A stretch of DNA of 64,000 nt from Armatimonadota bacterium (GTDB lineage Bacteria; Armatimonadota; Fimbriimonadia; Fimbriimonadales; Fimbriimonadaceae), in the NCBI GenBank assembly GCA_029781035.1, contig JAKOXK010000034.1, positions 1-64,000 on the forward strand, given 5' to 3'. Of this stretch, positions 23,167 to 29,050 are shown in pieces. The notes below the pieces were generated by a model that ran no database searches, was not told the DNA's origin, and worked only from the letters and a program-made list of their open reading frames with translations. A program made the translations under genes and the position numbers. Position 1 is the stretch's first letter. The number at the start of each line of letters is the position of its first letter.

Positions 23167-23931
23167 TCACATACCCACGATGTTGTATCCATCATCCACA
23201 AACACGATCTGTCCCGACACGCCTCGAGACAGGTCGCTCATCAGATAGACGCAGGTACCGGCAACTTCCTCTTGACCAAAAGGTCTTTTCAAAGGGGCCC
23301 GGTTGTGGACATAGTCGATCATCTCAGTCAGGCCTTTGACCCCGCGCGCCGCCACCGTGTTGATCGGGCCTGGGCTTACGGTGTTCACGCGGATTCCCCG
23401 CGTCCCCAAGTCCACTGCCAAATACCGGGCGACCGATTCTAGGGCCGCCTTGGCCACCCCCATAACGTTGTAGTTGCCCACGGCGCGCGTGCTTCCCAGG
23501 TAGGACATCGCCATGACGCTGGCGTCATCCGCCATGACGGGCTCCAGGGCACGGCACAAAGCGACGAGTGAGAAGGCGCTGACATCGAGTGCCAGTTGAA
23601 ACCCGTCCCGACTGGTTTCAATAAACCGACCGCTCAGGTCTTCTCGCTTGGCAAAGGCGGCTGAGTGGACCAGAAAGTCGATGGTTCCGTACTTCGCCGA
23701 AACGGACTCGCGAAGGGCGTCGAGTTGGTCGTCAAAGCTGAAGTCCACGGTGAAGACGTCGAACCGGTCTTTTCCTTGGACGAGCTCTTGGACCCGACTC
23801 AGCATCTTGTCGTTCTGGGCGCCGACGCCGACGGTGGCTCCGTGGGCGTGTGCGGCTTCGGCCACAGCCCAGCCGATGCTGTTCTTGTTCGTGACATTGA
23901 GCACGAGGCCCTTCTTTCCGGCGAGCAACAT
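23167..23931 (-). CDS. fabI: Enoyl-ACP reductase (FabI)
   Basis: A 254-residue SDR enzyme that reduces trans-2-enoyl-ACP with NAD(P)H in fatty-acid elongation and is the classic triclosan target. The N-terminus LLAGKKGLVLNVTNKNSIGWAV is the FabI-specific cofactor loop. The catalytic pair is Tyr and Lys in YNVMGVAK (Tyr-x6-Lys), and the C-terminal TCVYLMSDLSRGVSGQIVF is conserved. The ATG at 23931 matches the family start. A perfect TATAAT box lies seven bases upstream with no Shine-Dalgarno, so the mRNA is likely leaderless. A formiminotransferase-like gene follows in the same direction. Confidence 0.93.
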   Translation of the reverse strand: MLLAGKKGLVLNVTNKNSIGWAVAEAAHAHGATVGVGAQNDKMLSRVQELVQGKDRFDVFTVDFSFDDQLDALRESVSAKYGTIDFLVHSAAFAKREDLSGRFIETSRDGFQLALDVSAFSLVALCRALEPVMADDASVMAMSYLGSTRAVGNYNVMGVAKAALESVARYLAVDLGTRGIRVNTVSPGPINTVAARGVKGLTEMIDYVHNRAPLKRPFGQEEVAGTCVYLMSDLSRGVSGQIVFVDDGYNIVGM

Positions 23932-23938
23932 ACTTGGG

Positions 23939-23944
23939 ATTATA
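23939..23944 (-). promoter_or_regulatory. TATAAT -10 box of fabI
   Basis: A consensus TATAAT on the minus strand ends seven bases before the fabI ATG, placing transcription start at or next to the A of ATG. No clear -35 was found. Confidence 0.6.
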
Positions 23945-24004
23945 CGAGGGTCGGTTCGAGTGGGTGGCACTGCGAGAGCGACGACCGTGAAGCCTGGCCG
24001 CGGA

Positions 24005-24040
24005 ATGAAAAATGGCGCCCCGGGTTTGCCCGGGTGCGCC
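24005..24040 (-). terminator. Intrinsic terminator of a minus-strand RNA
   Basis: Read on the minus strand, GGCGC-ACCCGGG and CCCGGGGCGCC form an 11-bp stem with one bulged base and a 4-base loop, followed by ATTTTTC. The U-run exists only in this direction. No coding gene ends here on the minus strand, and fabI begins 70 bases further on, so it must end a separate transcript. Confidence 0.8.
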
Positions 24041-24212
24041 TAGTACCCTATCTCGCTTGCGTCTTGCCCTCGGCAAGTTGTCTGCGGCCAATCTGCGTTG
24101 GCCCATGGCTATTGTCGGGATGTGTGTCGCGTCACGAGAGGGCGACAGACCTTAGGCCAGGAATTCGGCCTCGAAAGAAAGGGGCCGTGTGGCTCGCGCA
24201 CCGAACGGCCAA
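24008..24212 (-). ncRNA. Candidate structured small RNA with five hairpins
   Basis: Between a TATTAT box (24219-24224, minus strand) and the intrinsic terminator lie five perfect stem-loops in a row: GGCCGT/ACGGCC (24183-24210), AGGCC/GGCCT (24154-24171), TGTCGC/GCGACA (24125-24147), GGCCAA/TTGGCC (24086-24103) and CTTGCC/GGCAAG (24063-24077). No convincing reading frame spans the region. It does not show the conserved core of tmRNA, SRP RNA or RNase P, and a single 6S-like rod is not evident. The predicted transcript is about 200 nt. Function is unknown. Confidence 0.55.
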
Positions 24213-24217
24213 TCATG

Positions 24218-24224
24218 CATAATA
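24218..24224. promoter_or_regulatory. Shared -10 for tRNA-Ser (+) and the small RNA (-)
   Basis: CATAAT on the plus strand (24218-24223) ends 10 bases before tRNA-Ser. TATTAT on the minus strand (24219-24224) precedes the candidate RNA. The two -10 elements overlap almost completely, suggesting a bidirectional promoter. Confidence 0.5.
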
Positions 24225-24233
24225 CGTCTCCAC

Positions 24234-24324
24234 GGACAGGTGGCCGAGTGGCTTAAGGCGCCCGCCTGCTAAGCGGGTTGGGGCTAATCGCCCCTCCCGG
24301 GTTCGAATCCCGGCCTGTCCGCCA
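24234..24324 (+). tRNA. tRNA-Ser(GCT)
   Basis: Acceptor GGACAGG pairs with CCTGTCC. Anticodon loop CTGCTAA gives anticodon GCT (reads AGC and AGU). A long variable arm (TTGGGGCTAATCGCCCCTC) is diagnostic of a class II serine tRNA. The T arm is CCGGG-TTCGAAT-CCCGG, with G73 and an encoded CCA. The next gene's Shine-Dalgarno touches the CCA. Confidence 0.97.
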
Positions 24325-28630: not shown

Positions 28631-28662
28631 CTTCCTGACGGCGTTCGCGCCGTTGATTCCAA

Positions 28663-28772
28663 GGCCTAATGTGCCGTGTGCGGCACAGCGGGGGACCCAG
28701 ACCTGGGGTGAATGCCGAACTTTTCGGCAAGGGTGGTTCTTGGCCCTAACCCGGCAGCTAACCTCGTAAGCC
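28663..28772 (+). promoter_or_regulatory. c-di-AMP riboswitch (ydaO/yuaA type)
   Basis: The conserved ydaO core is present in order: GGGGGACCCA, CTGGGGTGAAT, a GCCGAA/TTCGGC hairpin, AAGGGTGGTTCTTGGCCCT, and the diagnostic CCCGGCAGCTAACCTCGTAAG. A 5' hairpin (TGTGCCG/CGGCACA) and an outer GGC...GCC closing helix fit the family. These riboswitches turn expression off when cyclic di-AMP is high and usually govern wall hydrolases or potassium uptake. The nearest plus-strand gene is an MFS transporter 366 bases away with its own promoter-like box. Confidence 0.88.
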
Positions 28773-29050
28773 AATGCAAGAACCGGGACTCGGTCCCGGA
28801 TGAGGAGTCGAGTGATTTACGCAACTGCCACCGATCTGAGACACCGCCGACCAGGCGTGTGGCGAAGGGTGCCGGAGCAGCCCCTGCAAGAATCCACGGC
28901 ACAAAGAGCTGAGCGCGAAGCCCACAGCTTCAAGACCAGTACCCATGAACCTCCAAACCGCTCGACCGGACGCAGGGCCTTTTGTCACCACTGGGGCCCT
29001 GGGCCATCGACAGCCTGACGAAAGGTCAAAGCGGTCCGCCTCGCTCCTTC
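28773..29050 (+). other. Structured region after the riboswitch, no recognisable gene
   Basis: CCGGGAC/GTCCCGG (from about 28783) forms a hairpin directly after the aptamer and could be the expression platform, although there is no U-run. Further stems follow: GTGCCG/CGGCAC enclosing GCAG/CTGC, and GAGCTG/CAGCTT. A 72-codon frame begins at the ATG at 28801 but looks like no known family. The stretch may be a noncoding RNA or the remains of a gene. Confidence 0.4.

Follow-up and report, generated by a model that had tools for sequence, protein, structure and literature searches.

The window, i.e. the whole 64,000-nucleotide stretch of Fimbriimonadaceae DNA that was analysed, almost certainly contains a conserved RNA gene on its minus strand, and the RNA is a new sRNA family, of a known kind. 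The best explanation of the available evidence, which we consider probable, is that the RNA is transcribed from a sigma-28-type promoter and acts in trans in the flagellar regulon, probably with assistance by Hfq. The original prediction had placed a noncoding RNA gene in a 220-nt interval beside a tRNA-Ser gene; a minus-strand gene, with its own terminator and without a match in Rfam, is borne out, but the boundaries, promoter and fold differ from those drawn.

Conservation and structure of the RNA gene

Inspection of the sequence reveals the intrinsic terminator with a U-run that was originally described, GGCGC-ACCCGGG-CAAA-CCCGGG-GCGCC-A-TTTTT, on the minus strand at 24040-24008. Five non-overlapping perfect hairpins with stems of at least 5 bp, the terminator stem being one of the five, fit in the 220 nt, a count matched by 1.1% of 2000 dinucleotide shuffles, and the region as a whole folds modestly better than shuffled sequences (-83.5 versus -74.5 kcal/mol; z = -2.0). 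Taken alone, the hairpin count and fold z-score are suggestive, short of decisive. Rfam searches of the region at gathering and relaxed thresholds matched no family except tRNA, and searches of other members (E up to 3) gave no match. Elsewhere the window contains a c-di-AMP riboswitch (RF00379, 77 bits; 28653-28787, plus strand) and a bacterial class A RNase P RNA (RF00010; 9550-9862, minus strand).

When relatives were searched at the DNA level, six Fimbriimonadaceae genomes, the window's own among them, proved to carry the 3' half of the region, with a core, GACTTGCCGAGGGCAAGACGCAAGCGAGATAGGGT, that is nearly invariant across the first genera compared. The set was widened by use of a covariance model (R1), synteny around fabI and tRNA-Ser, and a sequence-only model (R2) of the 3' motif. 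By sequence search the gene is present in 19 genomes from 7 genera of the Fimbriimonadaceae (Armatimonadota), with a single convincing copy in each; two genomes of an eighth genus (g5; G007 and G065), which carries a different hairpin, were added by position only, i.e. tRNA-Ser, RNA, terminator. The R2 model gave no convincing member in other families of the order. In the remainder of the phylum sample the exact core pattern, which would miss diverged copies, did not occur; named records that do contain it are assemblies from metagenomes, labelled Armatimonadetes, Fimbriimonadaceae and Chthonomonadaceae. No literature on sRNAs of Fimbriimonas or Armatimonadota turned up in the library searched. 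Protein coding by the near-invariant stretch is ruled out by a single-base insertion in one genome (G002) and a two-base insertion in another (G010), which break any frame.

Conservation is limited to the 3' half of the region (minus strand, from about 24105 to 24008), where two hairpins, here termed P2 and P3, are followed by an AGGGUA linker and then by the terminator. From the conservation of P2 through to the terminator a transcript of ~98 nt (24008-24105) is predicted, its start being uncertain by a few bases. Although five serial stem-loops do fit in the interval, the conserved architecture is thus two hairpins plus terminator, and it is more likely that the first hairpins of the interval lie outside the RNA.

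P2 (24086-24103, minus strand; GGCCAA-CGCAGA-UUGGCC in the window) has a covarying stem of ~6 bp and a loop near CGNCAGA; its stems include GGCCAA/UUGGCC, GGCUGA/UCAGCC, GGCUCG/CGGGCC, CAAGUC/GACUUG and CGGGCC/GGCCCG. With arms picked by eye, 70 of 72 cells retain pairing, a result not equalled in any of 20,000 re-pairings of the arms between sequences. Because the arms had been picked by eye, the test was repeated with automatic stem finding, leaving out three of the distant members and two in which P2 is longer; 11 of 12 segments then had a stem score of at least 5, compared with a mean of 1.9 and a maximum of 7 (of 12) for shuffles. A covariation count on the covariance model alignment gave three pairs changed on both sides, which is weaker than the other P2 tests and, since several alignment rows are misplaced, is a conservative figure. 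The checks proposed with the original prediction, i.e. comparison with Rfam covariance models and with relatives, have thus given, respectively, no match, and homologues in other genera with compensatory changes in the conserved secondary structure of P2.

The second hairpin was originally drawn as CUUGCC-GAG-GGCAAG (24077-24063, minus strand), a version that is invariant among the sequences, so without covariation. It is probably wider, i.e. CUUGC-CGAGGGCAAGAC-GCAAG at 24056-24077 on the same strand: in other genera, including g47, a CAGC/GCUG stem surrounds the loop AUCCAGGGAAAACAGA, corresponding to CUUGC/GCAAG around CGAGGGCAAGAC in the window, a match that probably places AGGG in the P3 loop. 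P3 is followed by a conserved unpaired linker, CGAGAUAGGGUACUA (24041-24055, minus strand), and by the Rho-independent terminator (24008-24040), which is at the same place in the displayed homologues; its GC-rich hairpin precedes a run of mostly 6-8 U in these members and 5 in the window. A long-range ACCCU/AGGGU helix, suggested by single-sequence folds, was dropped as not conserved. In two loci (L125 and L126, from G097 and G096) an upstream element, GCCCATACCC, is perfectly complementary over 10 bp to GGGTATGGGC, located at the linker and the start of the terminator; this complementarity, which is possibly due to chance, was not seen in other members.

A predicted sigma-28-type promoter

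When the homologues are anchored at CCGA, two boxes are apparent upstream of P2, in the form CTAARG-N16-CCGANAAT, with a fixed spacing and an unconserved spacer; they were spotted by eye before being measured. The CC and the first A of the second box are invariant in 16 sequences, the spacer and upstream columns being low in information, and in most members P2 begins 7-10 nt past the second box, where a transcript start is expected. The published consensus for sigma-28 (FliA) promoters is TAAAGTTT-n11-GCCGATAA, e.g. TAAAGATA-n11-GCCGACAT for the E. coli aer promoter (PMC2859248). The CTAARG-N16-CCGANAAT layout fits this pattern, its spacing exceeding that of the E. coli consensus by one base, and a promoter of the TAAA/GCCGATAA type is found just before the predicted start, the boxes being missing in one genome (G004). 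In the window the -10 box is good (CCGACAAT; 24111-24118, minus strand), and the sequence at the -35 position is poor (CTCTCG, a weak match to CTAARG; 24135-24140, minus strand). On these sequence grounds the sRNA is likely to be under sigma-28 control.

The original prediction instead took a minus-strand TATTAT box as the promoter of an RNA of ~200 nt in which all five hairpins are working parts. The letters are present (24224-24219, minus strand) and constitute 5/6 of the -10 consensus, two near relatives have TATTCT at the same position, and the hairpins of the longer RNA do exist. However, relatives do not conserve the box as a minus-strand promoter, information content is low upstream of the CTAARG box in an alignment of 16 homologues, and conservation begins in the middle of the interval, at the sigma-28-like promoter, a starting point that is unchanged in homologues located away from tRNA-Ser. 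Furthermore, the TATTAT letters overlap a plus-strand CATAAT (24218-24223), outside the sRNA, which is the probable -10 box of the divergent tRNA-Ser (GCT) gene (24234-24324, plus strand). At the same place on the plus strand relatives have TAGAAT (G001 and G003) or TATAAT (G007 and G065), and the box stands 10-13 nt ahead of tRNA-Ser, a position just before the gene that fits the tRNA better. As judged from these comparisons, TATTAT is more likely the -10 element of the tRNA gene than an sRNA promoter, and an RNA of ~200 nt is improbable.

The occurrence of the same box at flagellar genes is consistent with a sigma-28-type assignment for the shorter RNA. In 708 kb scanned, the strongest promoter match not belonging to the sRNA precedes flgB-flgC of one genome (G018). 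A weight matrix was used to scan fourteen csrA and flgB regions, the majority containing flagellar genes; at a score of at least 15 there are 8 matches in flagellar regions versus 0-5 in controls, a modest and, by count, weak enrichment. The matches include sites just upstream of flgK, flgB, gmd, a gene for a protoglobin-domain MCP chemoreceptor and, in the csrA region, a gene encoding a zf-HC2-like protein. The CCGANAAT box, in the form CCGA(C/G/T)AAT, lies within about 25 bases upstream of flgK in 11 of the 13 genomes examined, the 11 flgK genes being orthologues and hence not 11 independent observations; the same box precedes flgK in the window genome (CCCGAGAATTACCAGT-ATG) and is absent at flgK in two g16 genomes. 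In several genomes the proximity of this box to the flgK start codon resembles that in fabI-like genes, giving the gene a leaderless look. Flagellin promoters were also sought, but a simple sequence pattern detected no flagellin gene among the regions examined.

Independence from neighbouring genes

The original prediction saw no coding gene that the terminator could serve. Downstream on the same strand, however, and outside the sRNA, lies an enoyl-ACP reductase gene (fabI-like; 23931-23170, minus strand), though a TATAAT-type promoter box of its own adjoins its start codon. The RNA might in principle be a fabI leader or attenuator whose terminator controls the gene that follows, and fabI is indeed the next same-strand gene in the window genome and in G010, G066, G018, G073, G004 and G007. 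Against this, the RNA is retained where fabI sits elsewhere (G001, G002, G003, G013 and G078), and in G003 and G013 it is not a leader because the next downstream gene is convergent. Read-through is also unnecessary for most fabI genes, which have a CATAAT-type box a few bases upstream of their start codons. A role as a fabI leader is therefore very unlikely; the sRNA gene, with one clear copy in each genome and differing surroundings, is independent of the neighbouring coding genes. In many fabI-like genes (23931-23950, minus strand, in the window, and L060-L088) a CATAAT/TATAAT box precedes the start codon by only some 6-12 bases, which suggests leaderless mRNAs.

Possible function and comparison with known RNAs

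The original prediction noted that no single 6S-like rod is evident. The Rfam search of the region, at E up to 5, found no 6S match, and none was obtained for other members at E up to 3. The absence of recognisable 6S RNA from the family nevertheless makes it reasonable to ask if the RNA could be a strongly diverged 6S RNA filling that gap, since 16 Fimbriimonadaceae (f1) genomes tested have no credible match to the Rfam 6S model (RF00013), whereas other families of the same order do. Both are intergenic RNAs, but the sRNA has two hairpins one after the other, not the closed rod and central bubble of 6S, is unlike the 6S sequences of families f2 and f3, and shares no neighbours with 6S among the loci examined. 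Assignment as 6S by exclusion was rejected for lack of resemblance and such an identity is highly improbable; 6S may have been lost in Fimbriimonadaceae or have diverged too far.

Flagellar genes are commonly under CsrA control, 82 of 85 family genomes have a gene for CsrA and, in some genera, AGGGA is present in the P3 loop, such that a CsrA-sequestering decoy of the CsrB/RsmZ kind, tied to motility through CsrA, merits consideration. However, decoys of this kind carry many GGA loops, whereas GGA is absent from the window's RNA and occurs 0-5 times per 230 nt in others. The decoy proposal was rejected on the basis of too few GGA motifs, and there is little chance that it is correct.

We favour a base-pairing RNA. 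In the proposed mechanism a single-copy minus-strand gene would be transcribed from a sigma-28 (FliA/SigD)-type flagellar promoter, with its box at 24118-24111, to give an RNA of ~100 nt that would terminate at its own Rho-independent terminator. The RNA would fold into P2 and P3, exposing the conserved AGGG-rich loop and the AGGGUA linker, and would most likely act in trans by base pairing on mRNAs of the motility programme, probably with Hfq. Hfq is encoded in 82 of 85 family genomes, including the window's own, and the U-tail, two hairpins and exposed conserved purine-rich stretches would suit an Hfq-assisted base-pairing RNA; on balance we lean towards trans action of this type. In a search with the reverse complement of the linker the recurring match was the RNA gene itself, and the top matches by duplex energy against gene starts in flagellar regions were mostly to implausible frames, with no agreement between genomes; neither search found a conserved target.

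Small RNAs linked to the flagellar sigma factor have precedents. The E. coli UhpU, MotR, FliX and FlgO sRNAs are sigma-28-dependent and Hfq-linked (PMC10578931); they resemble the Fimbriimonadaceae sRNA in being small RNAs under a flagellar sigma factor (here predicted) with a link to Hfq, but come from mRNA UTRs, whereas the latter has a free-standing intergenic gene, in a different phylum and host. The Campylobacter CjNC1 and CjNC4 RNAs are likewise free-standing and short, with a sigma-28 -10 box of the CGATWT type directly upstream of the start and a terminator hairpin, but are about 50 nt, the Fimbriimonadaceae sRNA having two extra hairpins (PMC4626219). The likeness to both groups is functional, and no homology is claimed. 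Campylobacter is not known to have Hfq, whereas Fimbriimonadaceae encode it.

The balance of the evidence tips towards an Rfam-absent sRNA family in the sigma-28 flagellar regulon of Armatimonadota that may link swimming to another programme through Hfq. The work provides a conserved and testable regulatory sRNA for the Fimbriimonadaceae, the promoter of which predicts expression with the late flagellar genes, together with a sigma-28 promoter motif, specific to the lineage, with which that regulon can be mapped. It suggests that control of flagella by sRNAs, as in E. coli and Campylobacter, also occurs in a distant phylum.
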